A DNA stretch of 64,000 bases, from assembly GCA_021730635.1 (NCBI GenBank), contig JAJNNC010000001.1, positions 124,001-188,000 on the forward strand, given 5' to 3'. Made by a program: the position numbers and the translations under genes. Source of the stretch: Catalimonadaceae bacterium JC749. GTDB lineage: Bacteria > Bacteroidota > Bacteroidia > Cytophagales > Cyclobacteriaceae. Of this stretch, positions 33,954 through 54,695 are shown piece by piece. The notes beneath the pieces are model-generated. The model had not been told where the DNA came from, did no database searches, and saw nothing but the letters and a program-made list of their open reading frames with translations. Numbering within the stretch: position 1 is the first letter of the stretch; each line of letters begins with the position of its first letter.

Positions 33954-33986
33954 GTTATATAATCCCTGTTATTATTTATATAATTC
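33954..33986 (-). promoter_or_regulatory. Proposed HMA-AraC operator upstream of copB
   Basis: Plus-strand half-sites GTTATATAATC (33954-33964) and TTTATATAATT (33975-33985), 21 bp apart. It lies in the gap between the glycosidase-like stop and copB. The spacing fits the family exactly; the inner ten bases do not match the two best sites. Confidence 0.5.
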
Positions 33987-34002
33987 GGAAAATCAAGCTC
34001 CG

Positions 34003-35295
34003 CTATGCTCCTACAGAAGCTGCCTCTTTTTCCATCTGCATCATGTCTACGACCAACCCTGCCCAGGTGAAATCACGAGCACCGTAACCCTCTCCTGTGA
34101 AAGGATGATAGTATTCACGGAAACCACTTTTTTCAATAAGCGCCTTGACGCTATTGATCAAAAGCTTTGAAGCATCCTGGTAGCCCTTTTCCATCAGAAA
34201 CTGATGCATAAACCAGTTGAACAAGATCCAGGTAGGCCCCCGCCAGATATACATAGAACTTCCCGGATGAAAGGACGGATGATTCCTGGCCACAGAGGGT
34301 ATAGGAAAAGGAACGGCAAACTCCTCCTTATGAAAGAAGTGAGTCTCCATGACTTGCCGACAGATCTGGTCGGGCATTTCCCGGATGACGACAGGGAAGA
34401 AGATAGTAGGCGTCAGGATCTTTATTTTTGTATTTTCTTTGCCATAAACATCGAAGAAAGCAGCTGATTCCTCCTCATACATCAGCTTCAACATACTTTG
34501 CAGGGTTTGATCGGCCATGGCTGTAAAGGTTCCCGCATCCGGGTCCTGCAGCACTTCACAGAGCCTAGCCATTGCCCGCAGATTCTGCACATAGATAGTA
34601 TTAAAGCCTACTTCTTTTACGATGAAATAACCTTTTTCATAAATCTTATCTGATTGGTAGTTGTATAAAAAGTTACGTACATCTACCGCCACTACCTTCC
34701 AGAACAACCGCCAGTCAGCTTTTTTCTCCGGAAAACCCACCACCGGATCAAAAGTAGGTTTCCAGTCCATACCGGATTCAAAAGGAGAAATAATGGAGAT
34801 CAGGCCGTCTCCATCAAAATCTCTGTGCCGGGCCAGCCAGAAGTAGTATTGCTTCAACCGGGGAAGCATCTCCTGAAGGAAGGCACGATCTTTAGTAAGC
34901 TGATACACTCTGTAAACTGCCTGTGCCACTAAAGGAGGCTGAATCAGTGCACTCATGTGTGTACGAAACAGTTCCCATTTCAAGCCTGGTTTTGACTGGA
35001 AAATATCTGTCAGCCTGCTGGGGAATACAGTATCCCAGTAGATCATATGACCTACAAAACCATTTTCCTCCTGCAAAGCAAAGAGACTGGTGAGATGTTT
35101 CTTGGCCATCTCATGCTCTCCCAGTGCGGTCAGAATGAAAACATGCAGACAGGTATCCCAGAAGAATTGGAAAGGATACCTGCCTGGCGAAGGTTTGGTA
35201 TAATGAAAGTGAGTGTTAGTTGATTTGGAGTAGCCGGCTACCATATTCTCAAACATCACTTCTCTGGCTTTTTTTCTGATTTCATGATCAGTCAT
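34003..35295 (-). CDS. MGH-type (alpha/alpha)6 glycoside hydrolase
   Basis: A 430-residue cytosolic protein without a signal peptide. Strings such as YPFQFFWDTCLHVFILTALGEHEMAKKHL, HRDFDGDGLISIISPFESGMDWKPTFD and IWRGPTWILFNWFMHQFL match the (alpha/alpha)6-barrel family that includes trehalase, GH63 and MGH1-like enzymes. The WD and SGMD/W aspartates near the barrel openings are candidate acid catalysts. It probably hydrolyses an alpha-glucoside, but the linkage is unknown. It sits inside the copper island with no evident metal role, just upstream of copB and its operator. Confidence 0.8.
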   Translation of the reverse strand: MTDHEIRKKAREVMFENMVAGYSKSTNTHFHYTKPSPGRYPFQFFWDTCLHVFILTALGEHEMAKKHLTSLFALQEENGFVGHMIYWDTVFPSRLTDIFQSKPGLKWELFRTHMSALIQPPLVAQAVYRVYQLTKDRAFLQEMLPRLKQYYFWLARHRDFDGDGLISIISPFESGMDWKPTFDPVVGFPEKKADWRLFWKVVAVDVRNFLYNYQSDKIYEKGYFIVKEVGFNTIYVQNLRAMARLCEVLQDPDAGTFTAMADQTLQSMLKLMYEEESAAFFDVYGKENTKIKILTPTIFFPVVIREMPDQICRQVMETHFFHKEEFAVPFPIPSVARNHPSFHPGSSMYIWRGPTWILFNWFMHQFLMEKGYQDASKLLINSVKALIEKSGFREYYHPFTGEGYGARDFTWAGLVVDMMQMEKEAASVGA

Positions 35296-35336
35296 GAAAA
35301 TAGTATTTCAATAGTTTCTCCTAGTTATCTAAAATT

Positions 35337-35951
35337 TTAGGCTGAGGCTTTGAGCACCATTCCTTGCCAGAAAAATGTAATGGCAAATGCTTCCATGTTC
35401 ATTATGGTAAAGCCTGCACTTTCTACCATTTCAACGATCTGGCTTGGCCAGTAAGCTTTCTGATGTGCCGCATCTATCCGTTTGATGACCCACTCAAAGT
35501 ATCTGGCGAGCCAGCCATCTTTGGTATAGTCTAACAGCAGAAGCAACCCATCTTTCTTCAGGATTTCTCTGAGGTAACGCAGTTCGGAGATGGGTTGAGG
35601 CAAATAGTGTAAAACACTGGTAGAAACAATGATATCAAAAGGAGCATCAAATTCTTTGTGGCTTTGCAGTATTACTTTTTTTTGGATATGCGCTGGCAGT
35701 TGCTCTAACTTTTTTTGGGCCTGCTGCAGCATTTCCTCGACAGGGTCATACCCTATGACCTGTTGCATGTCAGGATGTGCGATGAGCAATCTTTGGATCA
35801 GGGTGCCTGTGCCACAGCCATAGTCGAGCACCGTTTGATGAGCCACAGTATCAGGAAGACACTGCATGACTTTATCCAGTGTAACCTGGGTATAACGCTT
35901 CCATTTTTGATCATAAAAGCTCGCAATGTGTTTATAATAATCGTTAATCAT
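35337..35951 (-). CDS. Class I SAM-dependent methyltransferase
   Basis: A 204-residue Rossmann methyltransferase with motif I VLDYGCGTGTL and motif II-like IGYDPVEEML. The substrate is not indicated. I use the ATG of MINDYYKHIASFYD (35951), where the conserved domain begins. An upstream ATG at 36014 would add 21 residues. It precedes the glycosidase-like gene by 41 bp on the same strand and may be co-transcribed with it. Confidence 0.82.
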   Translation of the reverse strand: MINDYYKHIASFYDQKWKRYTQVTLDKVMQCLPDTVAHQTVLDYGCGTGTLIQRLLIAHPDMQQVIGYDPVEEMLQQAQKKLEQLPAHIQKKVILQSHKEFDAPFDIIVSTSVLHYLPQPISELRYLREILKKDGLLLLLDYTKDGWLARYFEWVIKRIDAAHQKAYWPSQIVEMVESAGFTIMNMEAFAITFFWQGMVLKASA

Positions 35952-36122
35952 TCTTAAAATGATATCTTGAAAAAGATTCCTGAAGACAGTACCAACCAGC
36001 GCAAAAGGATCCACCTGCTTTCAGTAAAGACCTTGCAGCGCTATCAAACGAGTGAGAGAGTGTCTGTTTCCACTCCGTAAAAAATTAACAGGAGCCTGAA
36101 CCCCTCTAGTTCTTCTTTACAT

Positions 36123-37688: not shown

Positions 37689-37735
37689 GGCTGCTATTAT
37701 TTAAAAAACTTCTTTGTTGTCTTTATTAATAGGGG

Positions 37736-37961: not shown

Positions 37962-37994
37962 TATACAAGATTTTGTTTTTTTGTTATAAAATAT
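37962..37994 (-). promoter_or_regulatory. Weak copy of the proposed HMA-AraC operator (VKOR/SPW)
   Basis: Plus-strand half-sites TATACAAGATT (37962-37972) and GTTATAAAATA (37983-37993), 21 bp apart. It lies upstream of the small ORF and VKOR/SPW gene, close to the end of the channel gene. The weakest of the seven copies. Confidence 0.3.
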
Positions 37995-39057: not shown

Positions 39058-39657
39058 TTAAACTTTATCGATGGGTGTTCGCATCGGAAAACCTCCCTTT
39101 CCTGAAGTACTTTTCCGATAGGCAGAAACAGAGATACCGGTCACTTTTTTAAACTGAGAAGAAAGATAATGAACACTGCTATATCCTAATTGAGCGGCAA
39201 TCTGCCCCAGGCTCATTTCGTCGTAGTCGATAAGCTCTTTCACTTTTTCTACCCTCAACTGTATGTAATACTGTTCTATGGTTCTGCCCTCCACCTTAGA
39301 GAACAGTTTACTCACATAATAATAATTCTTACCAACGCTGCTGGCGATGAATTTAGAAAGTGACAGGGTTTCTTTTTCCGCCGGCGGCATCTGAAGGAAA
39401 CGAATGACAGCCAGTTTGATCTGCTCCAAAAGAACCATATCCTTGTCCTGAAGTAATTCAAACCCAAGTTCGTTTAATTCAGAGGCAATCGCTTCCCATG
39501 AAACCGCCTCAGGGATTTTCACCTGAGCATAGCCTAACTCAACATGTGATATTTGAACACCCAGTGATGTTAAAGTGTTTTTTATGGCCATAATGCAGCG
39601 GTCACATACCATATTTTTAATATGTAAAATTGTACCTTTCATAATATTGCTATTCAT
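39058..39657 (-). CDS. HMA-AraC regulator 1 (CxxC HMA-like domain fused to AraC HTH)
   Basis: A 199-residue regulator. Residues 8-80 resemble an Atx1-type heavy-metal-associated domain with the motif NMVCDRC (C18 and C21), and residues 95-185 form an AraC HTH (YYIQLRVEKVKELIDYDEMSLGQIAAQLGYSSVHYLSSQFKKVTG). The N-terminal cysteines suit a direct Cu+ or Ag+ sensor; binding is inferred. It lies downstream of TRASH and DUF3347 on the cus strand. The protein is a clear paralogue of regulator 2 (54025-54609), with the same MVCDRC motif and domain order. ATG 39642 is an alternative start. Confidence 0.85.
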   Translation of the reverse strand: MNSNIMKGTILHIKNMVCDRCIMAIKNTLTSLGVQISHVELGYAQVKIPEAVSWEAIASELNELGFELLQDKDMVLLEQIKLAVIRFLQMPPAEKETLSLSKFIASSVGKNYYYVSKLFSKVEGRTIEQYYIQLRVEKVKELIDYDEMSLGQIAAQLGYSSVHYLSSQFKKVTGISVSAYRKSTSGKGGFPMRTPIDKV

Positions 39658-40794: not shown

Positions 40795-42582
40795 TTAATG
40801 CTGATGATCGGCGGAAGGTTGAGGCTGGCCTCTCCCTTCTTCGAATACCCGACTGCCCTTCCGGTAGGTTTCTGTCAATTCTCCACAGCCAAGCATTTGC
40901 TCGCCGAAATACGGATTGCGTATTTCTTCTGTCTCACTGAGCCAGTAAGCTCCTTCATCACCAAAGACCATAGGGCAGAAGTCTTTGTATACTTTCTCTT
41001 TTTCCAGCCCAAAAGACTCCGTGATCTCAAGCATATGCTGCGAAAGTGAGCTAAAATGTTCCCGAAGCTTTTCCAGATTTTCTGCGCCCTCAAAGGCAGT
41101 CAGGCTCTCTGCAAATTGGCTGGCCAACGCCATCCAGCGGTCGTGTGCCTGACCTTGGAGTAATCGCATTTCTACCTGGCCCAGGGTACTTTGCGCCTTG
41201 GCTGCTGCCTGTTTTGCAGCTGCTCCATCAGAATCTACCAGCGCATTTTTTACGTCAAAGTAAGCTTCTGCTACTGCGGTAATCTGCTGACGAAAAGCCT
41301 GGGGTACGTCCATGGTTTTGCTTTCCGGTCGACTCATCATGCTATAGTTACCCGAAAGCTGCGCCGCAGCATCTACAGCAAACACGCCATTGGTCACAAT
41401 CTCTTCACCTGCTTCCAGACCAGCCTCTACCAGATACATGTCGCCCATGCGCGGTCCGATGGTAATCTCACGCATCTCATAAGAGGGCATGTCCGCATCG
41501 GGCACCTTTACATAGACCACCGAACGCTTACCTGACCAAAGCAAAGCGGTTCGTGGAATAGCCAGGGAAGAGGCCTGTGCCTCCAGGTCAGACTGTATGC
41601 GTGCTGTCACAAACATCTCCGGTTTGAGTGCTCCCTTAGGATTGGCCGTTTCGGCCCGAACGGACGCTGCCCGTGTCTCCGGGTTAATGATCGGATCGAT
41701 ATAAGTGACCTTTGCCTCAAATGTCTTTCCAGGAAGGGCTGCCACTGTAAAGGAAACGGCATCTCCTATCTCTATGAAAGGCAAATCTGTTTCATACGCA
41801 TCGATCATGATCCAGACCCGACTCAAATCCACCACTTTAAAAAGGACAGAACCCGTGTTTACATAATCTCCTACAGCAATGTTACGCTGGATTACTACAC
41901 CACCTTTATCTGCCACTATGGCCAGTTGATCACTCACTTTTCCCGAGGTCTCAACAGCATCAATTTGCTTTTCTGTCAGCTTCCAGAGCTTGAGTTTTTC
42001 ACGGGCAGCGGTGTACAATTCTGGATAGGTTCCTTTTAATTTGGCAGCTTCCAGCAGTTCCTGCTGGGCCGTGCGTAGCTCGGGTGAATACACTGAAGCC
42101 AGTCGTTCTCCGGGTTGTACCCGCTGTCCGGTAAAATTGACGAAGAGCCGCTCAATACGTCCGGGAAACTTAGCAGTGATAGAAGCGATCTGTTGTTCAT
42201 CGGCCTGCACCTTCCCAGTAAGCAACACTTCTCCTTCGGGAGAAACACCCTTTACGCTTGACGTGTGGATATTGGCCATCGCTATGGCTTCGGGTGTCAT
42301 ACTGTGGACCAGAGGGTTGGTAGCTGATACAGAAGGCGCGGAAGCTACCGGTACCAGATCCATCCCACAGATGGGGCACTGCCCCGGCTCCGACTGCCTG
42401 ATCTGCGGGTGCATGGAGCAGGTCCAGACTTCATCGGAAGATGCATCATGCTGATGTGACGCAGATGGTTCATGGTCTTCATGAACGGCAGAAGGCTTTA
42501 ACCCCCATCCGATGAGGCCTCCCAGTACCAAGGCCAAAAGGATGGTTAGAACGCTTTTTTTATGTTTTACTATATTATTCAT
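40795..42582 (-). CDS. cusB: CusB-type RND periplasmic adaptor
   Basis: A 595-residue membrane-fusion protein of a heavy-metal RND pump. The N-terminus has a signal/anchor helix (VLTILLALVLGGLIGWGL) and a His-rich stretch. The heavy-metal-binding motif WTCSMHPQIRQSEPGQCPICGM follows (C55, C69, C72). The HlyD-type barrel and hairpin come next (VQPGERLASVYSPELRTAQQELLEAAK), then a C-terminal DUF3347 domain with FCPM...GAYWLSETEEIRNPYFG. The end reads PSADHQH, a possible metal tail. It bridges CusA and the TolC-like CusC to move Cu+ or Ag+ to the outside. Confidence 0.9.
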   Translation of the reverse strand: MNNIVKHKKSVLTILLALVLGGLIGWGLKPSAVHEDHEPSASHQHDASSDEVWTCSMHPQIRQSEPGQCPICGMDLVPVASAPSVSATNPLVHSMTPEAIAMANIHTSSVKGVSPEGEVLLTGKVQADEQQIASITAKFPGRIERLFVNFTGQRVQPGERLASVYSPELRTAQQELLEAAKLKGTYPELYTAAREKLKLWKLTEKQIDAVETSGKVSDQLAIVADKGGVVIQRNIAVGDYVNTGSVLFKVVDLSRVWIMIDAYETDLPFIEIGDAVSFTVAALPGKTFEAKVTYIDPIINPETRAASVRAETANPKGALKPEMFVTARIQSDLEAQASSLAIPRTALLWSGKRSVVYVKVPDADMPSYEMREITIGPRMGDMYLVEAGLEAGEEIVTNGVFAVDAAAQLSGNYSMMSRPESKTMDVPQAFRQQITAVAEAYFDVKNALVDSDGAAAKQAAAKAQSTLGQVEMRLLQGQAHDRWMALASQFAESLTAFEGAENLEKLREHFSSLSQHMLEITESFGLEKEKVYKDFCPMVFGDEGAYWLSETEEIRNPYFGEQMLGCGELTETYRKGSRVFEEGRGQPQPSADHQH

Positions 42583-42602: not shown

Positions 42603-44036
42603 TCAGTTATCCAATTCCGTAGTTGCCAATCTCTCAAGCATAGCCGCTGTCACATGTTGATCTACGATCGCTGTGATGAGTTTGAGCTGAAAATCTAGCA
42701 GTTGTTGCTGTACGCTGAGCACTTCCTCCAAGCCCTGACCCTCCGAAGTATAACTGATCCTGAGCAGATTCAGGGTCTGCCTGGCCAGGGCTGCCTGTTC
42801 CTGGTAGAGCGTTGTTCTCCGGGTCGCATCATCCAGATCGCGTATTGCATGGTGCCACTGTGTGGTAAGCTGGTTGACCGTTTGTTCCTTTCGCTGCTGT
42901 ACGGCCTGCTGTTTGAGCGCCGCCTCCTGCCGCATGGCAGTGTATTTTTTCCGGTAAATAGGGATACTCATCCTAAGCATGGGCATCAGCATATCGTTTC
43001 CTCCCATAGACATGCCATCTTCCACCCTTGGGCGGAAAGGCATATAGGTGATCCCCGCACCCAACATGGGTCTCCCTTCCAGCCGGGCCATCTCTTCCTG
43101 CACCTCATAGGCTTCGGTTTCAGCATCCAGCATTTTTAGCATAGGATGGTTCATCGTGATACTATCCAACAAAGCATGATGATTCAGGATCAAGGGTTGG
43201 CTGACAAGGGTATCGGCAATCCTGACAGGCTCATGATAGTCTCTGTTGAGATGCTGGTTGAATTCTGCCTGTAAGTGAGCATGGGCATCTTGTAATGAAG
43301 CCAGCGTATTGTCCAGTCCCTTCATTTCTATCCGGATTCTCAGCACATCGCTCATGCCTGATTTGCCGAAGCGCATTGCTCTACCGGATGAACCCATCGC
43401 AGGGGCTACATTGCCAGCGCTGTTTGTGCTCGAAGAATTGCTTCCATTTCTATTGCCCCCCATATTTCCCATTGAGGATTCTGAAGCAGGTGGTGAGGCA
43501 CTGTTCATAGTATTATCATTCGGCATACTACCAGGAGTTGCCTCACTGCTACCGCCATTTTGAAAGCGTACCAGGGCCAGACGCTCATAGGCTCGAAGAA
43601 TAGCCAGATTTTCTTCAGTAACACTGATCTCTTTCTCCAGGCGGTACATTTCATACCACGTACTTTTTACCTCATAGAACAAGCGGTTTTTAGCATCCTG
43701 AAACACCTCATACCGGGCCAGTGCCATTTTACTGGCTTCATCTTTTCGAGCGCGGAGCATACCAAACCAGGGAAACATTTGCATAAGTTGGATGTCTGCC
43801 TGCTGGTTGCCCATCACCCGTTCCATAGTCTGAAGGAAAAAACCCATACTTAACTCAGGATCCGGTAGGCCGCCTACCTGCGGCACCCTCTCTAAGGCCG
43901 CCAGGTACTCACTGAAATAAGCTTTCAGCTCAGGGTTGTTTTCCGCAGCGAGTTGCAAGTATTCTTCCATTTCCTGAGCAAAGGTGATTTGCCAGAGGCT
44001 CAATAAAACGAAAGTGATGATTAACAATCTTTTCAT
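42603..44036 (-). CDS. cusC: TolC-type outer-membrane channel (CusC-like)
   Basis: A 477-residue TolC-type protein with a signal (about residues 1-20). The two coiled halves are separated by an insertion of about 80 residues rich in Asn, Ser, Gly and Met (from GGSSEATPGSMPNDNTM to SSGRAMRFGKSG). Methionines in this loop suit copper or silver binding, but this is inference. The helical arms (EDATRRTTLYQEQAALARQTLNLLRISYTSEGQG) fit the TolC fold. It forms the outer part of the CusCBA efflux duct. The gaps to cusA (10 bp) and cusB (20 bp) are short. Confidence 0.88.
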   Translation of the reverse strand: MKRLLIITFVLLSLWQITFAQEMEEYLQLAAENNPELKAYFSEYLAALERVPQVGGLPDPELSMGFFLQTMERVMGNQQADIQLMQMFPWFGMLRARKDEASKMALARYEVFQDAKNRLFYEVKSTWYEMYRLEKEISVTEENLAILRAYERLALVRFQNGGSSEATPGSMPNDNTMNSASPPASESSMGNMGGNRNGSNSSSTNSAGNVAPAMGSSGRAMRFGKSGMSDVLRIRIEMKGLDNTLASLQDAHAHLQAEFNQHLNRDYHEPVRIADTLVSQPLILNHHALLDSITMNHPMLKMLDAETEAYEVQEEMARLEGRPMLGAGITYMPFRPRVEDGMSMGGNDMLMPMLRMSIPIYRKKYTAMRQEAALKQQAVQQRKEQTVNQLTTQWHHAIRDLDDATRRTTLYQEQAALARQTLNLLRISYTSEGQGLEEVLSVQQQLLDFQLKLITAIVDQHVTAAMLERLATTELDN

Positions 44037-44046: not shown

Positions 44047-47000
44047 TTAAGATGCTGTAAATACTTCGGGGTTCTTTTTTAGCTTTCTCTCTGCCCACCA
44101 GCAATACAACACTGGCACCAGAAAGAGCGTCATCAGTTCCAGGGTCATCCCTCCAAAAGAAGGAATAGCCATAGGAATCATAATATCAGCACCCCTCCCC
44201 GAGGAGGTGAGTACCGGCAACAGAGCCAACAGCGTTGTAGCGGTGGTCATCAGGCAGGGTAGTACTCTTTTTTTACCGGCTGCCAATACTGCCTCCCGTA
44301 CTTCCTGTACATTGTCGGGAGATCGTTTTTCAAAGCTCTGTTTCAGGTAAGTAGCCACCACGACTCCATCATCGGTGGCAATCCCGAACAGAGCAATAAA
44401 GCCCACCCAGACCGCCACACTCAGGTTGTAGGTTTTCATCTGGAACAACTCTCGCATAGGTGTGCCAAAGACTGAGAAATCCATGAACCAATCCTGCCCA
44501 TAGAACCATAGCATCATAAAACCACCAGCGAAAGCCATGGCTATACCTGAGAAGACAAAAAGGGAAGTGGCTACCGAACGGAACTGGAAATAAAGAATCA
44601 GAAAGATGATGATCAGGCTGAGCGGCACCACAATAGACAGGCGTTTTTCTGCTCTGACCTGGTTTTCATAGCTGCCTGAAAACTCATACCGCACGCCCGA
44701 GGGAACGATGAGTTCTCCCGAGGCTATTTTTTCCCGCAGATAACGCTGGGCTTGTTCTACCACTGTCACTTCGGCAAAGCCGGGTTTTTTATCCAGCAAT
44801 ACATACCCTACCAGGAAGCTGTTTTCTCCACGGATCATTTCAGGACCGGGCCGATAGGTAATCTCAGCCAGTTGCTCGAGCGGAATGTAGGAACCCATAG
44901 GGGTAGGCACCAGCATATGGGCAATGGCATCCGGATCATCCCGCCATTCACGGGCATAGCGCACCCGGATAGGAAAACGTTCTCTGCCTTCTACAGTAGT
45001 GCTGAGTGGCATACCACCAACGGCTGTTTCTACATAATCCTGAACATCCCGGATATTGAGTCCGTAGCGGGCGATCTGCGTTCGGTCAATATCAATTTCC
45101 AGATAAGGTTTGCCTACGATACGGTCGGCAAATACGGCTTCTGATTTCACGGACGGTACCTCTTTGAGGTATCTTTCTAACTGAAGGCCAAACGTTTCTA
45201 TGGTTTTCAGATCAGGTCCGTAAACCTTAATACCCATAGGAGCCCGCATGCCGGTTTGCAGCATCACCAGACGGGTTTCAATGGGTTGCAATTTGGGAGC
45301 GGAAGTGACACCGGGAATATTCACGACACTCACAATCTCCTGCCAGATGTCGTCGGGACTCTGAATATGATCGCGCCACTGACGAAAATATTCACCATCG
45401 CTATCGGGCATGAGCTGCTGTACCTCTATCTGTTCCGGCGACATGGTTTCCGGATCATACACTTCCCCATTTTTTAAGACAAACTGCCCCCCTTCATTTA
45501 CTTTAAAGCGGCGTTTATTGCCGTTAAGATCGGTGATATACTCACTTTTATAATTGATCGTATTCTCAAACATAGAGATAGGCGCCGGGTCAATGGCTGT
45601 TTCGGCTCTGCCCGCTTTTCCCACCACCATGTCCACTTCGGGAATGGCCGTCACCCTTCTGTCTAGTTGCTGCAGAATCTTCCGGTTTACTTCAATACCT
45701 GAGTGTGGCATGGAGGTAGGCATCAGCAGGAAAGAACCTTCGTTCAGAGAAGGCATAAATTCTTCCCCGAGCCCCGGAAAGGTTTCGCTCATGGCTGACC
45801 AGGCAGCCGTTTCCCGGACATTCCAGTTCACTTTTTCTGCAGCGCTGGGAATAATTCCAAATACTCTGTCGAAGCCCAGCCATACATTGATTCCCACCAA
45901 TATGATGAGGACAGGCGCTATTAAAAAGAGTCCTTTATGGTTCAGGCACCACATCAACAGGCGGGGATAAAAGCGCAGAAAAAGCGCAAAAGTGCCCAAT
46001 ACTAATCCTAGAATGAAGCCGATAAACAGGAAATTGACCAGCAAACTATTAGATACGCCCAGGGGCATCCACGATGTGGCCAACAGCCAGGTTACAGCCA
46101 ACACTGTGACACCTACCCTCAGCAGGTTCCGGTGGGGTTCCAATTTTTCAGGAAAATAATGGAGCAGCAGATTGATAACGCCAAAACCAAACAATACCCA
46201 ACCTGCCCAGGCCCAGACCGAAAAGGCAATCAGGGGACCTGCCAGCACCAGCAGATAGTTAAAATATAAAGAGGCTTTCCCTTTGCCCTTCTTCATAGAA
46301 AATACCCAGTGAGAAAAGGCAGGCATGATGATGAGCGTGAAAATGACAGCAGCCACCAGCGCAAATGTTTTAGTATAGGCCAAGGGTCCAAACAGTTTGC
46401 CTTCGGCTGCCTGCAAGGTAAACACGGGTAGGAAGCTCACAATAGTAGTGCTCACGGCCGTCACAATGGCAGAGGCTACTTCAGTGGTGGCCAGGTATAT
46501 CGTCGTCAGCTTAGACTGTCCCTCCGGCGCTGTTTCCAGATGCCGTAGGATATTTTCATTGAGGATAATGCCCAGATCGACCATGGTGCCGATGGCAATG
46601 GCAATGCCGGATAAAGCCACAATATTGGCATCTACCCCCACATATTTCATAAAAATGAAACACATGAGTACCGCCAGTGGCAACAAGGCAGAGATGAGCA
46701 GAGATGCCCGCAGGTTGTACACCATCACGATAATGACAATGATGGTAATAAGAATCTGCAGGTTGATGGCTTCGTAAAGGGTGCCTAAGGTTTCATAGAT
46801 CAGGCCGGTACGGTCATAGAAGGGCACGATGGTTACTTTAGAGACCGTGCCGTCTTCCAACGTTTTGGAAGGCAAACCCTCCGCTAGTTTCTCTATTTCT
46901 TCATTGACATGGTTGATCACTGCCAGGGGGTTGTCGCCATACCGGGCGATCACCACACCGCCTACCGCTTCGGCACCGGATTTGTCCAGGATACCACTCA

Positions 47001-47871
47001 TGTTACGGGGTTGCGGCCCGATGTTCACATGGGCAATATCTCTGATCCGTAGCGGCACATTGTCTACCACTTTTACAACCGCCTGGTCAATATCACTGAT
47101 CTCTTCTACATAGCCCAGCCCTCTGACAAAATAATCCACCTGATTTACTTCAATGGTGTTGGCCCCTACATCAATGTTGCTGTTCTGCACCGCCTGCATC
47201 ACATCCATCAGCGAGATGCCATGTGCTTTCAACGCTACGGGATCCACATCCACCTGGTATTCTTTGACATAACCGCCTACGGAAGCCACTTCTGCCACTC
47301 CTTCCACACTGGTAAGGGCATAGCGCACATAATAATCCTGTATAGCCCTTAGTTCATGGAGGTCCCAGCCTCCGGTGGGGTTACCTGCTGAATCGCGACC
47401 TTCCAGGGTATACCAATAGACCTGACCGAGAGCGGTAGCATCAGGACCTAGCTTGGGCTGTACACCCTCAGGGAGCAGGCCGGCTGGCAAGGCATTGAGT
47501 TTTTCCAAAACTCTGGAGCGGCTCCAGTAGAAGTCGATGTCTTCCTCAAAGATGATGTAGATGCTGGAAAATCCGAAGGCTGAGCTGCTACGCACGCTCT
47601 TCACACCCGGCAAACCCAGGAGCGAGGTGGTGAGCGGATACGTAATCTGATCTTCCACATCCTGCGGAGAACGCCCCATCCATTCGGTAAAGACAATCTG
47701 CTGATTTTCACCTATATCAGGGATGGCATCTACCGGCACCGGATCACGGGGAAGAAAATCAACCTCCCAGTTGAATGGCGCCGTAACCACACCCCAGGTA
47801 ATGATGAGCAGTAGTAAGAGAACGGTGACCAGCTTATTCTCTAAAAAGAACTTGATAATAGTATTGAGCAT
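44047..47871 (-). CDS. cusA: CusA/CzcA heavy-metal RND efflux pump
   Basis: A 1274-residue inner-membrane RND pump, longer than typical CusA (about 1050) because of extra loops. Pairs of large periplasmic domains alternate with 12 membrane helices. Signature strings include DVEDQITYPLTTSLLGLPGVKSVRS, AIAIGTMVDLGIILNENILRHLE and GIATDDGVVVATYLKQSF. It exports Cu+/Ag+ (perhaps Zn2+ or Co2+) from the periplasm or cytoplasm through CusB and CusC. A three-stem structured leader fills the 91 bp in front of its ATG. Confidence 0.92.
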   Translation of the reverse strand: MLNTIIKFFLENKLVTVLLLLLIITWGVVTAPFNWEVDFLPRDPVPVDAIPDIGENQQIVFTEWMGRSPQDVEDQITYPLTTSLLGLPGVKSVRSSSAFGFSSIYIIFEEDIDFYWSRSRVLEKLNALPAGLLPEGVQPKLGPDATALGQVYWYTLEGRDSAGNPTGGWDLHELRAIQDYYVRYALTSVEGVAEVASVGGYVKEYQVDVDPVALKAHGISLMDVMQAVQNSNIDVGANTIEVNQVDYFVRGLGYVEEISDIDQAVVKVVDNVPLRIRDIAHVNIGPQPRNMSGILDKSGAEAVGGVVIARYGDNPLAVINHVNEEIEKLAEGLPSKTLEDGTVSKVTIVPFYDRTGLIYETLGTLYEAINLQILITIIVIIVMVYNLRASLLISALLPLAVLMCFIFMKYVGVDANIVALSGIAIAIGTMVDLGIILNENILRHLETAPEGQSKLTTIYLATTEVASAIVTAVSTTIVSFLPVFTLQAAEGKLFGPLAYTKTFALVAAVIFTLIIMPAFSHWVFSMKKGKGKASLYFNYLLVLAGPLIAFSVWAWAGWVLFGFGVINLLLHYFPEKLEPHRNLLRVGVTVLAVTWLLATSWMPLGVSNSLLVNFLFIGFILGLVLGTFALFLRFYPRLLMWCLNHKGLFLIAPVLIILVGINVWLGFDRVFGIIPSAAEKVNWNVRETAAWSAMSETFPGLGEEFMPSLNEGSFLLMPTSMPHSGIEVNRKILQQLDRRVTAIPEVDMVVGKAGRAETAIDPAPISMFENTINYKSEYITDLNGNKRRFKVNEGGQFVLKNGEVYDPETMSPEQIEVQQLMPDSDGEYFRQWRDHIQSPDDIWQEIVSVVNIPGVTSAPKLQPIETRLVMLQTGMRAPMGIKVYGPDLKTIETFGLQLERYLKEVPSVKSEAVFADRIVGKPYLEIDIDRTQIARYGLNIRDVQDYVETAVGGMPLSTTVEGRERFPIRVRYAREWRDDPDAIAHMLVPTPMGSYIPLEQLAEITYRPGPEMIRGENSFLVGYVLLDKKPGFAEVTVVEQAQRYLREKIASGELIVPSGVRYEFSGSYENQVRAEKRLSIVVPLSLIIIFLILYFQFRSVATSLFVFSGIAMAFAGGFMMLWFYGQDWFMDFSVFGTPMRELFQMKTYNLSVAVWVGFIALFGIATDDGVVVATYLKQSFEKRSPDNVQEVREAVLAAGKKRVLPCLMTTATTLLALLPVLTSSGRGADIMIPMAIPSFGGMTLELMTLFLVPVLYCWWAERKLKKNPEVFTAS

Positions 47872-47962: not shown

Positions 47963-48397
47963 CTATAAGAGGAAGGATTGAACGAATACCGGTATGTTGC
48001 GCTCAATCAGCGGCGGTATATAATGAAGATAACTCGGAAAATGGGGAAGGTCTTTCTGGCCGAAAGAAAGCAGCATGCTAGTGACCACCGCAATGAAGGT
48101 AAGATCAGGTTTTAATTCCGGATGGATGACAGTTTCCGATAGAGATTCCTGCACCTCACTGACAATCAACTGGTCTTGGCAACAGGGGTCTTTCTTCCCT
48201 TCATCATGGGAAGTGTCTTCCTGCTGATGGCAGGGAGGCAAGGCTTCTGTGTGTGCTTCACAGGCTTTTGCTTCCGCAAAGAACGCCAAGTCTTGAAGTT
48301 CTCCTCCGCAAAAATGCATACTCATGGTAAAGCCGGTCGTAGAGACCAGCACAACCAGGGCCATGCATACTGCTATGATTTGACGGATAAACTTCAC
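47963..48397 (-). CDS. HYC_CC_PP family protein
   Basis: A 144-residue protein with an N-terminal hydrophobic segment (AVCMALVVLVSTTGF) and the family's conserved HFCGG, EACEAH, PCHQQ and CCQ cysteine/histidine pattern, typical of the small Bacteroidota HYC_CC_PP family. Such genes sit next to CusA in Bacteroidota metal loci and probably bind copper in the envelope. It ends 91 bp upstream of cusA. A proposed HMA-AraC operator lies 64 bp upstream, making this the first gene of the cus unit. Confidence 0.75.
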   Translation of the reverse strand: MKFIRQIIAVCMALVVLVSTTGFTMSMHFCGGELQDLAFFAEAKACEAHTEALPPCHQQEDTSHDEGKKDPCCQDQLIVSEVQESLSETVIHPELKPDLTFIAVVTSMLLSFGQKDLPHFPSYLHYIPPLIERNIPVFVQSFLL

Positions 48398-48460
48398 AAT
48401 AATAATAAATAGGGTATATCTGATTTTCAGGCAAATATACGTATAATGTAAAAAAAGGGT

Positions 48461-48493
48461 GTTATGATATTTTCAAAAAGTTTTACATAATTT
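48461..48493 (-). promoter_or_regulatory. Proposed HMA-AraC operator upstream of the HYC-cus unit
   Basis: Plus-strand half-sites GTTATGATATT (48461-48471) and TTTACATAATT (48482-48492), 21 bp apart, 64 bp upstream of the HYC_CC_PP start. Confidence 0.5.
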
Positions 48494-48567: not shown

Positions 48568-48777
48568 TTATCCTACTTTTTCTGCTTTAAAGCCTGCCTT
48601 CTGCACAGCCTCCTTGATTTTCGCTTCCTCAGTGCTGCCGACAACCGTTAGAATTTTCTGAGGATTTTGAATATCTACTTCCCATTGATCTTCGCCAGCC
48701 GCCTGGTTTAAATAAGGCGTGACAGCTGCCAGACATCCTGAACATTTAATATCAGTTTTAAATTTCATTGTTTCCAT
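48568..48777 (-). CDS. Copper chaperone-like HMA domain protein
   Basis: A 69-residue protein that is nearly all a heavy-metal-associated domain with IKCSGC (C12 and C15). The beta-alpha-beta-beta-alpha-beta order is evident (TDIKCSGCLAAVTPYLNQA, WEVDIQNPQKILTVVG, AVQKAGFKAEKV). It would carry Cu+ between P-type ATPases and other partners. It stands between the cus unit and the cytochrome c gene; a proposed operator lies 96 bp upstream. Confidence 0.9.
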   Translation of the reverse strand: METMKFKTDIKCSGCLAAVTPYLNQAAGEDQWEVDIQNPQKILTVVGSTEEAKIKEAVQKAGFKAEKVG

Positions 48778-48872
48778 TTTTTGTTTTATTTATTTACTAG
48801 GTTCAACTATGTTTTTTACTCACTTGGTTTCATAGGTATCATACAAATTTACGGATAGTTACCAGCATCGGC

Positions 48873-48905
48873 TTTACAGAATTCTCTAAAAGATTTATAT
48901 AATAT
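48873..48905 (-). promoter_or_regulatory. Proposed HMA-AraC operator upstream of the chaperone
   Basis: Plus-strand half-sites TTTACAGAATT (48873-48883) and TTTATATAATA (48894-48904), 21 bp apart, 96 bp upstream of the HMA chaperone start, in the gap after the cytochrome c gene. Confidence 0.55.
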
Positions 48906-48987: not shown

Positions 48988-49584
48988 CTAATGCTGGTGA
49001 TTTTCCGACTCATTCTGTGCCTCTTGCCTCATTTTCTTTTCCTGTATTGCTTGAAACCATCGCCCCATGGCTTCATAGGCTTCAGCGGACATAGCAGGTA
49101 ATTGCCGGACTAAAGCCGTAACGCCCCAAATAGCATCTTCCGGATGAGTAGGCCCCAGAGCCATCATCCCGGTATCTTTAATCCCGTGTTTCAGGATCCA
49201 GAAGAGTTCGGCATCACTCCACTGCCCCACCACTTCTTTCCGCGTGAGGTCCGGCGCTTCGGGATAGAGGATCATCCAGGGATCGGGTTTTTGACCAGGC
49301 GCGCCGTGGCATGTCTGACAGGCTCCCCTGTAGTGCCCATAAAACTGCCTGGCATAGAGAGGATCCAGCAAGTTAACAGTATCGGGCACCTGTATGTCAC
49401 GGGCATGGTAACGGACTGACTGCTTCATGGTTGTTCTTAAAATCCACTCCACAGGTTTTGTGTGCCTGTCGGTAGCGCCCACATGATAAACCCCTGTGAA
49501 AACCACAGACAGAAAAGCAGCCAGCACAACCAGAAAAGCAACACACAGGAAAGGAAGGCGAATCCATTTCTTCTTCATGATCAT
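48988..49584 (-). CDS. Membrane-anchored c-type cytochrome
   Basis: A 198-residue protein with one N-terminal anchor (LPFLCVAFLVVLAAFLSVVF). The haem motif is CQTCH (C89, C92, H93), and a likely distal methionine lies in DTGMMALGP. It probably moves electrons in the envelope. The C-terminal NESENHQH ends with the same HQH as CusB. It lies 111 bp downstream of the His-rich outer-membrane protein, so the two are probably one transcript. A start at ATG 49578 (MKKKW) is also possible. Confidence 0.82.
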   Translation of the reverse strand: MIMKKKWIRLPFLCVAFLVVLAAFLSVVFTGVYHVGATDRHTKPVEWILRTTMKQSVRYHARDIQVPDTVNLLDPLYARQFYGHYRGACQTCHGAPGQKPDPWMILYPEAPDLTRKEVVGQWSDAELFWILKHGIKDTGMMALGPTHPEDAIWGVTALVRQLPAMSAEAYEAMGRWFQAIQEKKMRQEAQNESENHQH

Positions 49585-49695: not shown

Positions 49696-51153
49696 TTACT
49701 GTGGGGAGCCAGCACTCATCAGGCCAGGGTAGAGACGAAGGTATACCTGCAAGGCCCATGGATTGTCACCGTATAATTCTTCCAGTTGATCAGGCGAATT
49801 ATACCAGCTTCCCTGTGCCCCTAAGGCTAACTGGGTATTCAATACCTCCCACAACCTCTGCTGAATACCCAGCGAAATGGCATGAACCGGAAAGAGGGTG
49901 CTATGTCCGTATACTTCCTCATCCAGCAGCAACTCTTCCGTAGATTTTTCAACCCATTCATATTTGCCATATACCGTGGTGGTATTTGCACTTAGGGCAC
50001 TCTCCAGCAGAAAAGAATTTTGCGGGTCATGATGTCCTTGTGCCTTGTTATACCCCCAGACAGCCGTGGAGTTCAGAAAAGTATGAGTTCCAAGCCGTAA
50101 GGCATGGATGGCGGAAGCAGTGGTTTTATCTACATCTTCTCTCGGGCCCAGGGTGTGTACGTCTTTCACCCAGGCTTTGGAAACCTGTAGGGCCCAGGCC
50201 GGTGCTGGATTATAGGATAATCGGGCCGACCAGGAATCAAACCGGGGGCGGTCGAAGCCATACCGCTCTTCATCAGGCTCGCGTCCTGTAAAGACCGACC
50301 CTTCCAGTTTTAGTTGCTTATAGCGAAAACCCAAAGTTCCTACGCCAAAGGTAATGTGCGTCGCATCCTGCCAGTGATGTCCTATGGGTGCATCCGGATT
50401 ATACAAGCTGGATACACGGTGCATGAAAGCGACCGGCCCGAAAGCAGGTTCGCCCGGATAGCCTACGTATGCAAACGCATCTATATCTTTGGAAAACATA
50501 TGGGTATAGCCCACAGAAAGCTCTGAGAACAGATCGTGCGGATGCTGACGGTCTACCAAGGGTTCTCCTTCCCAGGTTTCACCGGATTGAAATAAAAGAG
50601 GGTAACCTTCGCCTCCTACCGTTAGCGGGTCCAAACTGATCATGGCACTGAAGCGGAACAATCCACGGTTGCCCACGGCCGTTTGCCCCATCCCCATCAG
50701 CCAGTTGGGAGCATCAAATTTACGATCTCCCCTGGAGCCTTTGCTGCCTATATCCTGGTGGTTGTAGCGTAGAAAAAGATTTCCATGAAACATGTACATC
50801 CATTTTTCAGTGTGCACCATATACCCATACATAGGAGAAGCATCGGGCAACCAGCCTGTGCCTGAACCATTCCGGTTCATGGGCAGGTTTCGAGAAAAAG
50901 CATGTGTCATGGGTACGCTTTCTGTATGCCCTTCATGATGGATGCTATTAGTCTGTGCAGGCTGATGTTCTTCGTGGATAGAGCCCTCCTTGTGATGTCC
51001 CTTTTGGTGAGGGCTATCCGCAGGCTGCTTATGCTGTTTTTCATGCGTAACACTATCATCCTGCGTATGGTGATGATGTCCTTCCGTTTGCCCCAGGGCA
51101 CTGTTTGCCAAAAATAAAAGGCCCAGCCATAGAGTAATATTAAATGTTTTCAT
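49696..51153 (-). CDS. His-rich outer-membrane protein
   Basis: A 485-residue protein with a signal (about residues 1-21), a 60-residue His-rich segment (EGHHHHTQDD, HQKGHHKEG, HHEGHTES) and then a predicted beta-barrel with aromatic turn strands (MYMFHGNLFLRYNHQDI, ISLGIQQRLWEVLNTQLALGAQG). The His-rich segment strongly suggests metal binding at the surface or in the periplasm. I do not recognise the family. A proposed operator lies 147 bp upstream, tying it to the copper response. Confidence 0.7.
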   Translation of the reverse strand: MKTFNITLWLGLLFLANSALGQTEGHHHHTQDDSVTHEKQHKQPADSPHQKGHHKEGSIHEEHQPAQTNSIHHEGHTESVPMTHAFSRNLPMNRNGSGTGWLPDASPMYGYMVHTEKWMYMFHGNLFLRYNHQDIGSKGSRGDRKFDAPNWLMGMGQTAVGNRGLFRFSAMISLDPLTVGGEGYPLLFQSGETWEGEPLVDRQHPHDLFSELSVGYTHMFSKDIDAFAYVGYPGEPAFGPVAFMHRVSSLYNPDAPIGHHWQDATHITFGVGTLGFRYKQLKLEGSVFTGREPDEERYGFDRPRFDSWSARLSYNPAPAWALQVSKAWVKDVHTLGPREDVDKTTASAIHALRLGTHTFLNSTAVWGYNKAQGHHDPQNSFLLESALSANTTTVYGKYEWVEKSTEELLLDEEVYGHSTLFPVHAISLGIQQRLWEVLNTQLALGAQGSWYNSPDQLEELYGDNPWALQVYLRLYPGLMSAGSPQ

Positions 51154-51299
51154 AACTTTAAAATAAGACGTGATTTATTGTTGCTGAGACTGGCAGGATT
51201 AGGGCCCTGCCAGTTTCTTTTTAAGGAAGCCCTGGATTCCTGTATGTCAGACCTTACCAGAAAGCTTAGGTAAAGGTAAGAATAGGATATCGTTGAGGC

Positions 51300-51332
51300 T
51301 TTACATTTTAATCGGAATGGTTTATATAATTT
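51300..51332 (-). promoter_or_regulatory. Proposed HMA-AraC operator upstream of the His-rich OMP
   Basis: Plus-strand half-sites TTTACATTTTA (51300-51310) and TTTATATAATT (51321-51331), 21 bp apart, with ATCGGAA between them at the same place as in the site at 54663. About 26 of 33 positions are identical to that site. Confidence 0.65.
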
Positions 51333-51447
51333 CCTGGCTGTCAATTCATTAAAAAATACTTTCATCATTTCTCCATAATCAGTAACTGCCTTTTAATGGC
51401 GAAGCCATGAGGAGCTATGTTCACAAACCTTTTTCTATGAAAGAAAC

Positions 51448-51475
51448 AAGAGCCGGTAAGCCACCGACTCTTTTC
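51448..51475 (-). terminator. Hairpin terminator after copA
   Basis: AAGAGCCGGT (51448-51457) pairs with ACCGACTCTT (51463-51472) across five bases, with one wobble pair. It lies about 50 bp past the copA stop; the T run follows on the plus strand but is short on the minus strand. Confidence 0.55.
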
Positions 51476-51522
51476 TAAAAGTAATCATTGCTGATGGGTA
51501 TCTCCGTGCGCCAGGACAGTGC

Positions 51523-53874
51523 CTACAGTTTCGCTGCTCTCAGGCGTAAACTGTTGCTCACCACAGAGACAGAACTCAGGGCCATGGCTGCGCCTGCAAT
51601 CATAGGGTCCAGCAGGAATCCGTTCACAGGATACAGCACTCCCGCTGCGATAGGAATGCCGATCAGATTGTAAATAAAAGCCCAAAACAGGTTCTGGCGG
51701 ATACCCTTTACCGTCTTAGAGGAAAGTTTTAATGCTTTGGGAACCGACTGCAAATCGGAGGTAATCAGTGTCATTTTAGCCACATCCATGGCAATGTCAG
51801 AACCTTTGCCCATCGCAATACTGACATCGGCCTGCGCCAGGGCATGGGAGTCGTTGATACCATCCCCCACCATGGCCACCACCTTGCCTTCTTGCTGAAG
51901 TTCTTTCACAAAGTCAGCCTTATCGGAAGGCAGCACCTCCGCTTTGTAATGCCTCAGCCCCACCTGCCTGGCCACGGCTGCGGCCGTCTTTTCATTGTCT
52001 CCGGTCAGCATATACACTGTGATCCCTCTCTGCTGCAAAAGATGAATCGCTTGTTGGGAAGTATCCTTGACTTTATCAGCGATGGCCAGTACAGCCAGCA
52101 CTTCCCGGCTATCGGCAAAATAAATTACTGTTTTGGCTTCTTGCTGAAACTGCCCGGATGCCTGATCTAAGGTATCAGTGATGTTGATCTGGTTTTCAAG
52201 CATCAACGAGCGGTTACCAACAAAATAGACAGAGGCATCGGGCAGGGTCGCTTGAATCCCTTTACCGGTGATGCTCTCGAAAGTCAATATTTCTACCCGT
52301 TCTGTCACTTCCGCTTTCAATCGGCTGACCACTGCATCAGCCAGTGGATGCTCCGAATTTGCCTCTATCGCATAGAGGATCTGCTTATACCGAGAAACTC
52401 GATCCGCTTCGCCGTTCCATACCCAGTCTGTTACCACGGGTTTTCCTTCGGTGATGGTGCCTGTCTTATCCAGCACTACCGCATTCACTTTATGTCCTAT
52501 CTCCAGACTTTCGGCGTCTTTGATCAGAATGTTATTTTCCGCCCCCTTTCCCACACCTACCATAATAGCCGTGGGGGTAGCCAGGCCCAGGGCACAAGGG
52601 CAGGCAATCACTAACACAGCAATGGAAGTTAACAAAGCATGGGTGAAGGCATTTTCGCCGCCCAACACCATCCAGGTAATAAAAGTAAGGACAGCAATAC
52701 TGATTACAATGGGTACAAAGATACCTGCAATTTTATCTACCAGCCGCTGCACGGGCGCTTTACTACCCTGGGCTTCCTGCACCATCCTGATGATCTGTGC
52801 CAGGAGGGTATCGCTCCCCACTTTTTCGGCGATGAACTGAAAGCTCCCTTTCTGATTCACCGTACCGGCAAACACCTTCTCATCCTTCTTTTTTTCTACG
52901 GGGACAGGCTCTCCGGTAATCATACTCTCATCTACAAAAGAGGAGCCGGAGGTGACTACGCCATCTACCGGAATTTTCTCTCCTGGCTTTACCACCAGGG
53001 TATGGCCTACCTGTACGGCAGCCACCGGCAATTCCTGTTCTTTTCCTTCTATGATGACCTGTACTGTTTTCGGTTGCAAGCCCATCAGTTTTTTAATCGC
53101 TGAAGAGGTAGTAGACTTGGCTCTATCTTCCAGCAGTTTGCCCAGAGAGATAAAAGCAATAATCACTGCCGCTGCTTCAAAATACACATGAGGATGAATG
53201 CCTCTGGCATGCCAGAATTCAGGATAAATCGTATTGAAAGTGCTAAAGGCGAATGCAATGCCTGTGGATAAGGCTACCAGCGTATCCATGTTAGCTTTTC
53301 CATACCTGGCCTGTTTCCATGCATTGACAAAAAAACGGCGCCCAAAGTAAAAAACGACTGGAGCTGTTACAATAAGAGAGATCCAGTTAGCATAGGGCAT
53401 ATCCATAAAAAACATACCGATGATCACGACCGGAATTGCCAGGACAGAAGCTCCTATTGTACTGATTTTCAAGGTATTGTATTGTTGGCGCTGTGCTTCT
53501 TCCTGCACAGCCTTTGGGTCTTCTGCATCAATCACCAGGTCGTACCCAATGGAGCGAATGGCTTGCTGTAAAGTTTCGGGTTTTACCGCCGTATCGTAGT
53601 CTACCCAGGCCGTTTGGTTGGCAAAGTTGACGCCAGCGTCTGTTACCCCTGCTGTTGATTTGAGCATCGACTCCACACTCACCGCACAGGCTGCACAACT
53701 CATGCCCAGTACCGGAAACGTCTGATGTGTACGGTTACCATTCCGGGAATCGCCATTCCGGGAACTACCATTCCGGGAACTACCATTCCGGGAACTACCG
53801 TTCTGGGAATCGCCATTCCGGGAATTACCATTCCGGATTGTTTCTTTATCTAAAGTATTATTATTCATTGCCAT
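51523..53874 (-). CDS. copA: CopA-type Cu+-exporting P-type ATPase
   Basis: A P1B-1 ATPase of 783 residues. The N-terminus starts with a low-complexity segment built from seven five-residue repeats of the NGSSR type. One HMA domain follows with GMSCAAC (C60 and C63). The membrane ion site is CPC (C425-P-C427), the phosphorylation site DKTGT (D469), and the GDGIND loop is present. It pumps Cu+ or Ag+ from the cytoplasm to the periplasm. The proposed operator 79 bp upstream and regulator 2 immediately upstream on the same strand indicate local control. Confidence 0.95.
53734..53837 (-). repeat. 15-bp minisatellite coding the copA N-terminal repeats
   Basis: Seven tandem 15-bp units with the plus-strand core ACTACCATTCCGGGA vary at few positions (53734-53837). 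They are in frame with copA and encode Asn-Gly-Ser-Arg-type pentapeptides. Such repeats can gain or lose units by slippage without breaking the frame. Confidence 0.85.
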
Positions 53875-53952
53875 TGTTTTACAGTATTTATCGTATTCTG
53901 CTTGTCTCTAATCCCTCACCTTATAAAGATACCTTCCTAAGGCCCGGTCTGT

Positions 53953-53985
53953 TTTATACAATTACTGATATGTTTTACATGATTT
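53953..53985 (-). promoter_or_regulatory. Proposed HMA-AraC operator upstream of copA
   Basis: Plus-strand half-sites TTTATACAATT (53953-53963) and TTTACATGATT (53974-53984), 21 bp apart, 79 bp upstream of the copA start. Confidence 0.6.
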
Positions 53986-54024
53986 TAGTGAATATCCCAA
54001 AAAACCGGATGCATCCCATACCTC

Positions 54025-54609
54025 CTAAAGCTCTACTTCCTGATCGGTCCATCTATGTTTTTTTAACTTTATTTCCCGGAAGTGTGAAGGTGTGAAACCG
54101 GTAAGTTCTTTAAACTGGTTAGAAAGATGTTGAACGCTGCTAAAGCCGATAAGATAGGCTATATCAGTAAGTGTAAGATCAGTATAGACCAGCCATTCTT
54201 TCACCTTCTCCAACCGTCTGTTGATAATGTACTTCTCCAATGTAATGCCTTCAGTAGCAGAAAATAATGCGCTCAGCGTATTATATTCCATAGAGAGCTT
54301 CTCCTGTAACAAACGTGAGAACTTTACAGGTACCTCATAGTCTTCAGGTTCCTTTAACACCACCTCAATGAGGTCTTTGATCTCCTGCACTACCTTGCTG
54401 TTGCGATCCTGGAGAAGCTCAAAGCCATTTTCCGCTAACACCTGCTGTATGGGGGCTAAAGAGGGCAAGCGAGAGGTTCCTGCCAAGGTTACCGAACCCA
54501 GATGGATTTCTTTCACGATGAGTCCCAGATCTGTAAAAGACCGGGTCAGTACACGCTTGCACCGATCGCATACCATCCCTTTGATGAAAATGGTTGTAGC
54601 ATCTTCCAT
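54025..54609 (-). CDS. HMA-AraC regulator 2 (CxxC HMA-like domain fused to AraC HTH)
   Basis: A 194-residue regulator. Residues 4-75 form an HMA-like fold with GMVCDRC (C14 and C17), and the C-terminal half is an AraC HTH (IINRRLEKVKEWLVYTDLTLTDIAYLIGFSSVQHLSNQFKELTGFTPSHFR). The domain order matches regulator 1 at 39058. It would sense Cu+ or Ag+ directly and activate the copper genes; this is inferred. It lies directly upstream of copA, and a copy of the proposed operator is 54 bp in front of its start, so it probably controls itself. Confidence 0.85.
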   Translation of the reverse strand: MEDATTIFIKGMVCDRCKRVLTRSFTDLGLIVKEIHLGSVTLAGTSRLPSLAPIQQVLAENGFELLQDRNSKVVQEIKDLIEVVLKEPEDYEVPVKFSRLLQEKLSMEYNTLSALFSATEGITLEKYIINRRLEKVKEWLVYTDLTLTDIAYLIGFSSVQHLSNQFKELTGFTPSHFREIKLKKHRWTDQEVEL

Positions 54610-54662
54610 ACCTGATAGTGTTGGTTACTGATGCCAAATTCAGAAGAATGCCGGTATTTTGC

Positions 54663-54695
54663 TTTACACAATTATCGGAAGGTTTTATAAAATTT
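54663..54695 (-). promoter_or_regulatory. Proposed HMA-AraC operator upstream of regulator 2
   Basis: Plus-strand half-sites TTTACACAATT (54663-54673) and TTTATAAAATT (54684-54694), 21 bp apart, 54 bp upstream of the regulator start. The inner part ATCGGAA also occurs at the same place in the site at 51300. Confidence 0.65.

Follow-up and report, generated by a model that had tools for sequence, protein, structure and literature searches.

How the genes of a copper-resistance island are switched on together is the question raised by a 64,000-nucleotide stretch of Catalimonadaceae bacterium JC749 (contig JAJNNC010000001.1, positions 124,001 to 188,000; hereafter the window), in which promoters in front of copper-type genes carry a spaced direct repeat and two genes encode HMA-AraC regulators, proteins with an HMA-like metal domain and an AraC-type DNA-binding domain. 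An earlier note had described seven copies of the repeat, AATTNTRTAAA-N10-AATTNTRTAAA with its half-sites 21 bp apart, as a candidate operator for these regulators. The pattern, allowed up to three mismatches, has exactly six matches in the window, all on the minus (coding) strand, whereas 100 shuffles of the same DNA with dinucleotides preserved give 0.02 on average. Judged from sequence, six copper-resistance promoters have the same paired DNA tag, set at a constant distance from their predicted start, and it is very likely that this tag acts as an operator.

Because the six-site pattern came from the window sites themselves, the motif was rebuilt from other genomes. Unsupervised expectation-maximization (EM) was applied to 75 regions upstream of HMA-AraC genes, none of them from the window and one from a paralogue elsewhere in the same genome (L055), with the preceding upstream genes trimmed off. 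Its best solution consists of the same two half-sites 21 bp apart, and the resulting matrix ranks the window sites at 51300 and 54663 first. A second alignment (A1) was assembled from 51 of 57 sites in loci of other genomes with three or fewer mismatches to the earlier pattern. A sequence-only model (R1) built from A1 and run on the window with filters off returns the six sites as its six best matches, from 44.1 to 23.5 bits (E from 1.1e-12 to 3.5e-6), and a 64-column weight matrix from the same alignment scores them between 53.0 and 26.7 bits, no other window position exceeding 1.4 bits; 300 column-permuted matrices gave no position of 26.7 bits or more. The choice of A1 with the earlier pattern makes its half-site columns partly dependent on the window; its spacer and -7 columns are independent of it.

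The strongest site, operator 1 (54663..54694, minus strand, as are all window features below), lies before the gene for regulator 2 and reads AATTTTATAAA-N10-AATTGTGTAAA with no mismatches (R1 44.1 bits, E 1.1e-12; matrix 53.0 bits); it is also the top R1 match of the whole genome. Operator 2 (53953..53984; one mismatch; R1 37.4 bits, matrix 41.7 bits) is between regulator 2 and copA, operator 3 (51300..51331; three mismatches; 26.5 and 34.0 bits, respectively) precedes the OMP-like gene and a cytochrome c gene, and operator 4 (48873..48904; one mismatch; 38.8 and 43.8 bits) precedes the gene for a 69-residue CopZ-like chaperone. Operator 5 (48461..48492; three mismatches; 25.1 and 36.3 bits) stands before the HYC_CC_PP and cus genes, and operator 6 (33954..33985; two mismatches; 23.5 and 26.7 bits) before copB, which encodes the second copper P-type ATPase. 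The seventh proposed copy, at 37962..37993, falls away: it has four mismatches, no -7 box at the usual spacing and a matrix score of -1.4 bits, and the R1 match at 37964, the next in the window after the six, reaches 7.8 bits (E 0.31). The ATCGGAA that the earlier note saw in both 54663 and 51300 is real, and it belongs to a longer stretch of conserved spacer that reads TCnTTnC in the coding direction.

Downstream of the sites there is a feature that the earlier note did not contain, a Bacteroidota-type -7 box. TAnnTTTR, found across the window at 0.00074 per position, starts exactly 21 bp after the repeat at five of the six sites: TATCTTTA of copA (53924..53931), TACCTTTA of the OMP-like and cytochrome c genes (51271..51278), TAAATTTG of the chaperone gene (48844..48851), TATATTTG of HYC/cus (48432..48439) and TAGGTTTA of copB (33925..33932). 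The sixth, before regulator 2, is the -7-like TGAATTTG (54635..54642) at an offset of 20 bp. Two of the six boxes are full TAnnTTTG and three are TAnnTTTA, one of these with an internal GG; the position of the boxes is clear, and their last base often deviates. The housekeeping -7 consensus of the Bacteroidota is TAnnTTTG, spanning -12 to -5, in the accessible parts of two promoter studies (PMC6847099, PMC9723704), and the two G residues of the copB box are unusual for the element: in the Flavobacterium johnsoniae promoter set, as far as the accessible part of its report goes, G almost never occurs where TAGGTTTA has GG (PMC6847099). Of the 57 outside sites, for which only the 32-mer was used in selection, 16 have a strict TAnnTTT at offset 21 and three have it at offset 20; no other offset has more than two. 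A looser box lies at offset 21 in 47 of 72 sites found with R1 and in 34 of 39 from stress-type loci (described below; one of the 39 is a partial match), counts that favour the presence of a box since R1 itself contains it.

With the box at -12 to -5, the half-sites would come to lie around -65 to -55 and -44 to -34, and a repeat pair at about -65 to -34 suits an activator. Class II activators of the AraC type occupy the same promoter position as this half-site pair, and with the predicted start positions the proximal half-site would stand in the class II arrangement, in which it abuts or overlaps the -33/-35 region.

The candidate binders are two small proteins. Regulator 2 (54025..54609; 194 amino acids) has an HMA-like domain with the loop MVCDRC followed by an AraC double helix-turn-helix (HTH), and by this C-terminal double HTH (Pfam HTH_18, 9.5e-20) it is a member of the AraC/XylS family. 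Regulator 1 (39058..39657; 199 amino acids), encoded downstream of the cus genes, has the same order of domains and the same loop (HTH_18 7.5e-17; a CopZ model match at 7.3e-7 is below that model's curated cut-off) and is 35% identical to regulator 2. An AlphaFold2 model of regulator 2 (predicted local distance difference test 86.4) shows a ferredoxin-like N-terminal domain joined to the double HTH; in Foldseek searches the HTH part matches AraC, MarA and SoxS (E up to 1e-3) and the N-terminus weakly matches CsoZ, MerP and PacS (E 0.02-0.07). A profile of 58 homologues matches the HMA domains of copper ATPases (ATP7B, 6.6e-12) and CopZ (8e-5) together with AraC structures. The model, the structure searches and the profile together predict that regulator 2 joins a CopZ-like domain to the AraC double HTH. 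The MVCxRC/CxxC motif is kept in 91 of 94 homologues, the other three reading MVSxRC, and the R of the loop is invariant in the 54 and 58 rows aligned. Conservation in alignment A5, with recognition-helix ranges set by us, is 0.87 for the metal loop and 0.77 and 0.82 for the recognition helices, compared with 0.70 for the rest of the HTH and 0.48 for the rest of the HMA domain, which is the expectation if both the metal site and the operator are fixed.

The earlier note had proposed scoring the repeat across the genome, and the outcome depends on the model used. The loose pattern has 48 matches in the 8.0 Mb genome compared with 22 for a reversed-pattern control, too weak a contrast to serve as stand-alone proof, although three of the four matches with no or one mismatch sit in the copper island. 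R1 places the six window sites among only nine matches at E ≤0.01 (20 bits or more), the others being one at C56:279196 and two on contig C12. In the 148 genomes of the bacterium's family, this one included, 104 have an R1 match at the same threshold. We took the 119 matches listed to E 1e-4 in family genomes other than this one, and assigned to each as its downstream gene the longest same-strand open frame starting within approximately 350 bp. The best match among the window proteins is CopA for 45 (three of them weak, E 7e-7 to 3e-6), HYC for 21 and HMA-AraC for 12, with short HMA proteins and DUF3347 proteins at three each and CopB and the OMP-like protein at one each; 29 have no match and four no frame. 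Pfam searches of 32 unmatched or short downstream proteins found HMA in 12 and DUF4396 in five. Copper-type genes or an HMA-AraC gene follow at least 95 of the 119 sites, in a tally that takes HYC, DUF3347 and the OMP-like protein as copper-type because of their place in the window's copper island. The remaining downstream genes include a permease, a major facilitator superfamily protein, beta-barrel proteins, a TonB-type receptor and others. Forty-nine of the 119 are training sites. The best match is a copper-island protein of the window for 48 of the other 70 (CopA 22, HYC 15, HMA-AraC 5, short HMA 2, DUF3347 2, CopB 1, OMP-like 1), with no match for 18 and no frame for four, and in genomes without any training site 25 of 38 sites match window proteins. 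An OMP-like homologue follows a site in G091 as well. Five loci (L082, L077, L076, L074 and L087) have proteins of 218-222 amino acids with a CxxC start after strong sites; Pfam confirms DUF4396 for that of L082, and the proteins are perhaps a copper-handling family.

The sites also keep company with the regulator genes. In 79 family loci, many of which also supplied training sites, 54 of 88 HMA-AraC genes have a same-strand site within 300 bp, the adjacent sites lying after the gene in 51 cases and before it in 13, some genes having both. In a second collection of 80 named loci R1 finds 71 sites in 55 loci; without two training sites there are 69 in 53 loci, 68 of them on the regulator strand, and an adjacent site is present in 37 of the 80 loci. 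The site-bearing loci include records of Rhodocytophaga, Pontibacter, Chitinophaga, Flavobacterium and Ignavibacteria. Regulator 2 homologues are found in 145 of the 148 family genomes at E ≤1e-3, some of them AraC-domain matches only, and presence was tallied, by hand, at cut-offs of our own choosing (regulator 1e-12 in the family and 1e-30 in the class, the latter pooling the Cys and Ser types described below; site 1e-3), from genome scans that score a limited number of candidates. Outside the family, where nothing was trained, 120 of the 198 genomes that have the regulator family carry sites, but only 18 of the 188 that lack it do (Fisher 3e-27). Within the family the numbers are 85 of 127 with the regulator compared to 2 of 21 without (Fisher 7e-7), or 98 of 127 and 6 of 21 at a site threshold of E ≤0.01; removal of 39 training genomes leaves 46 of 88 and 2 of 21 (Fisher 4e-4). 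Adjacency, co-occurrence, the copper-type genes downstream and the fixed place upstream of the -7 box all support the earlier reading of the repeat as an HMA-AraC operator. In six loci (L051, L052, L061, L063, L078 and L086) there are tandem HMA-AraC pairs with operators before or between them, and it is conceivable that such pairs bind the two half-sites as heterodimers. A further MVCDRC HMA-AraC gene of this genome (C78:271028-271597; L193 8990-9667) shares 46% identity with regulator 2; the genome's R1 list has no operator match nearby.

The sites are not confined to copper genes. Searches with an MVSxRC protein, in which the first Cys of the loop is replaced by Ser, gave 46 loci; 39 of their regulators are recognised by a simple pattern, 33 as MVSxRC and six as MVCxRC. 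A FastTree tree of 118 rows (82 of 173 Cys rows kept) requires three changes for its 36 Ser rows and came with long-branch warnings; the MVSxRC rows appear mostly to form one group. Their neighbours, by eye, are PAS-type kinases, response regulators and small stress-type genes, and R1 at E up to 0.05 finds 28 sites, from 35.8 to 12.7 bits. These fall in 22 of 35 loci of this kind, and three of those 22 are of the MVCxRC type. Their half-sites end mostly in TAAC, and those of other loci in TAAA or TAAC. Pfam searches of ten proteins chosen from the stress-type and own-genome loci gave three ferritin-like proteins (one below cut-off), a cupin (below cut-off), and one each of YceI, YtxH, OMP beta-barrel and XRE-AraC proteins, with two lacking an informative match. 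JC749 itself has an MVSIRC paralogue (C12:400615-401175; L188 8616-9176). The C12:400554 site (R1 20.0 bits) is just after it and before cupin-like and ferritin-like genes, and that at C12:408336 (22.9 bits) is approximately 355 bp before another ferritin-like frame; the paralogue and these sites could form a second regulon, for stress, that runs in parallel and uses this type of operator.

The notion of a copper-only operator is therefore discarded, since stress-type loci share the site type. MVSxRC proteins may control these stress-type genes. We give an even chance to there being a single operator-promoter module, in which MVCxRC proteins would read copper and turn on copper export and MVSxRC proteins would read another stress and turn on a general stress regulon. 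The latter would comprise ferritin-like, cupin, YceI, YtxH and OMP genes with a very similar 21-bp repeat and -7 spacing, and the MVSxRC proteins would often be followed by an apparent PAS-type histidine kinase. With both types in this genome, the two regulons may cross-talk. Four relatives (L372, L373, L375 and L377) have an altered metal loop (MACESC, or none) and are immediately followed by response-regulator-like frames, and are possibly a third input type.

We think it quite probable that the repeat serves as operator for a one-component copper regulator of the Bacteroidota, an activator combining an HMA domain (MVCxRC) with an AraC double HTH. Two 11-bp half-sites 21 bp apart, or two helical turns, would lie just ahead of a -7 box of the housekeeping TAnnTTTG type; binding of Cu(I) to the CxxC motif would switch the regulator, whereupon two subunits would occupy the repeats side by side and recruit RNA polymerase. 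We infer that regulator 2, perhaps with regulator 1, is the binder, copper the signal and activation the effect. Targets in the window would be copA, copB, the HYC/cus genes, the CopZ-like chaperone and the OMP/cytochrome c pair, and as regulator 2 would also act on its own promoter there would be positive feedback.

Several results weigh against this proposal. With the EM matrix, the four window sites other than 51300 and 54663 score 10.3-11.5 bits, which is inside background (21 window positions above 10 bits compared with 13.75 in Markov controls); used alone as a window detector this matrix is too blunt, parting only two of the six from background. The Pfam HMA model is silent on regulator 2 even at E 10. 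The strong site at C56:279196 precedes an XRE-AraC gene that has no evident copper link. Among the 198 class genomes that have a family member, 78 lack a site at E ≤1e-3, and 34 of the 88 HMA-AraC genes lack an adjacent one; these gaps may be due in part to drift of the sites or to losses in filtering. Conversely, sites are present in 18 of the 188 class genomes that lack a strong family member, and in seven of 16 genomes checked (G415, G362, G277, G311, G271, G500 and G349) no full-length family member was found. These seven have three to twelve sites each (G415 has 12, G362 ten). An overlooked MVSxRC protein was considered for the seven and rejected, as an MVSxRC query against all of them and profile A2 against six gave only AraC-domain matches in longer frames; either these assemblies miss the regulator or another protein can use the site. 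Finally, the co-occurrence p-values are too strong because the genomes are related and not independent. In four of the seven (G415, G362, G277 and G271; L341-L346 and L360) the sites are often, by eye, before stress-type genes.

The site-bearing genomes in which no full-length relative was found speak for a rival reading, that the operator is genuine but its binder is a different regulator travelling with the copper genes and the HMA-AraC protein a mere neighbour, and the histidine kinase and response regulator-like genes seen by eye near stress-type sites point the same way. We nonetheless regard this as improbable: sites adjoin HMA-AraC genes in the majority of family cases and in 37 of the 80 named loci, 12 of the 119 sites front an HMA-AraC gene itself, and both the spacing and the promoter position fit AraC-type activators. 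A touch less probable again is that the apo form of the HMA-AraC protein binds the site as a repressor that copper releases. Position alone leaves the sign of regulation free, but the pair, which stops at about -34, lies ahead of the -7 box and does not cover it, and at many sites the -7 box is imperfect, as expected of activator-dependent promoters. That the repeats are ordinary AT-rich promoter DNA matched by chance holds for 37962, and the loose three-mismatch pattern is indeed common genome-wide; for the six sites it is scarcely credible given their separation from the rest of the window in the weight matrix, the empty permuted models and the recurrence of sites beside the same genes in other genomes. 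The activator reading remains our preferred one, with the operator assignment very likely and the copper-activator mechanism likely.

The genes behind the sites are those of the copper island. Regulator 2 is followed by copA, encoding a copper P-type ATPase (51523..53874), the OMP-like gene (49696..51153), which keeps the earlier note's name and has no Pfam or NCBIfam match, and a cytochrome c gene (48988..49584; Cytochrome_CBB3). The CopZ-like chaperone (48568..48777) is an open frame of 69 residues with a CSGC motif and was named by eye; next come an HYC_CC_PP family protein (47963..48397; NCBIfam NF047658, 2.4e-21), a CusA-type resistance-nodulation-division pump (44047..47871; ACR_tran 2.1e-173), a CusC-type outer membrane efflux protein (42603..44036; OEP 2.7e-39) and a CusB-type adaptor (40795..42582; HMBD and DUF3347). 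The copB gene occupies 31621..33762 (TIGR01511, 4.2e-180). Outside the island, the XRE-AraC hybrid regulator gene lies directly downstream of a 28.4-bit site (C56:279196-279256; L189 at about 9197).

Known systems resemble parts of this arrangement. AraC and XylS have direct half-sites 21 bp apart; AraC at araI1-I2 and XylS at Pm share with the proteins here the double HTH and the two direct half-sites adjoining the core promoter, but they have a cupin N-terminal domain, whereas here there is an HMA ferredoxin-like fold, a Bacteroidota -7 promoter and copper-type genes. A literature search on the 21-bp spacing of AraC and XylS sites turned up no paper. CopZ and the HMA domains of copper ATPases are alike in predicted fold and in their MxCxxC loop, although in the regulators the HMA domain is fused to a DNA-binding domain and the loop is MVCxRC. 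CueR, CsoR, CopY, CusRS and ComR likewise govern copper export genes, with DNA-binding folds other than that of the AraC-type regulator here. We know of no small HMA domain in YbtA, an AraC-type protein that also bears on copper. In the accessible part of its report YbtA is needed for the Cu(II)-yersiniabactin response, and a double Cys-to-Ser change of its CxxC motif abolished activity (PMC8725597). On that partial account it is similar in being an AraC-type activator with a CxxC and a copper-linked response, and differs in responding to a copper-siderophore complex and controlling siderophore genes. A survey of marine bacteria, in the part accessible, lists only two-component and extracytoplasmic function copper homologues in its Bacteroidota (PMC10141476), and we recognised no description of an HMA-AraC copper regulator or its operator in the open-access literature searched.

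The paired tag is very probably, as its placement and neighbours suggest, the switch by which these bacteria turn on their copper defence. If so, many Bacteroidota would have a one-component copper sensor together with its operator, and the site model would predict copper regulons genome by genome. The natural Cys-to-Ser series would then be a case in which the input of a sensor may change while its DNA site stays, making the evolution of a metal sensor directly testable.

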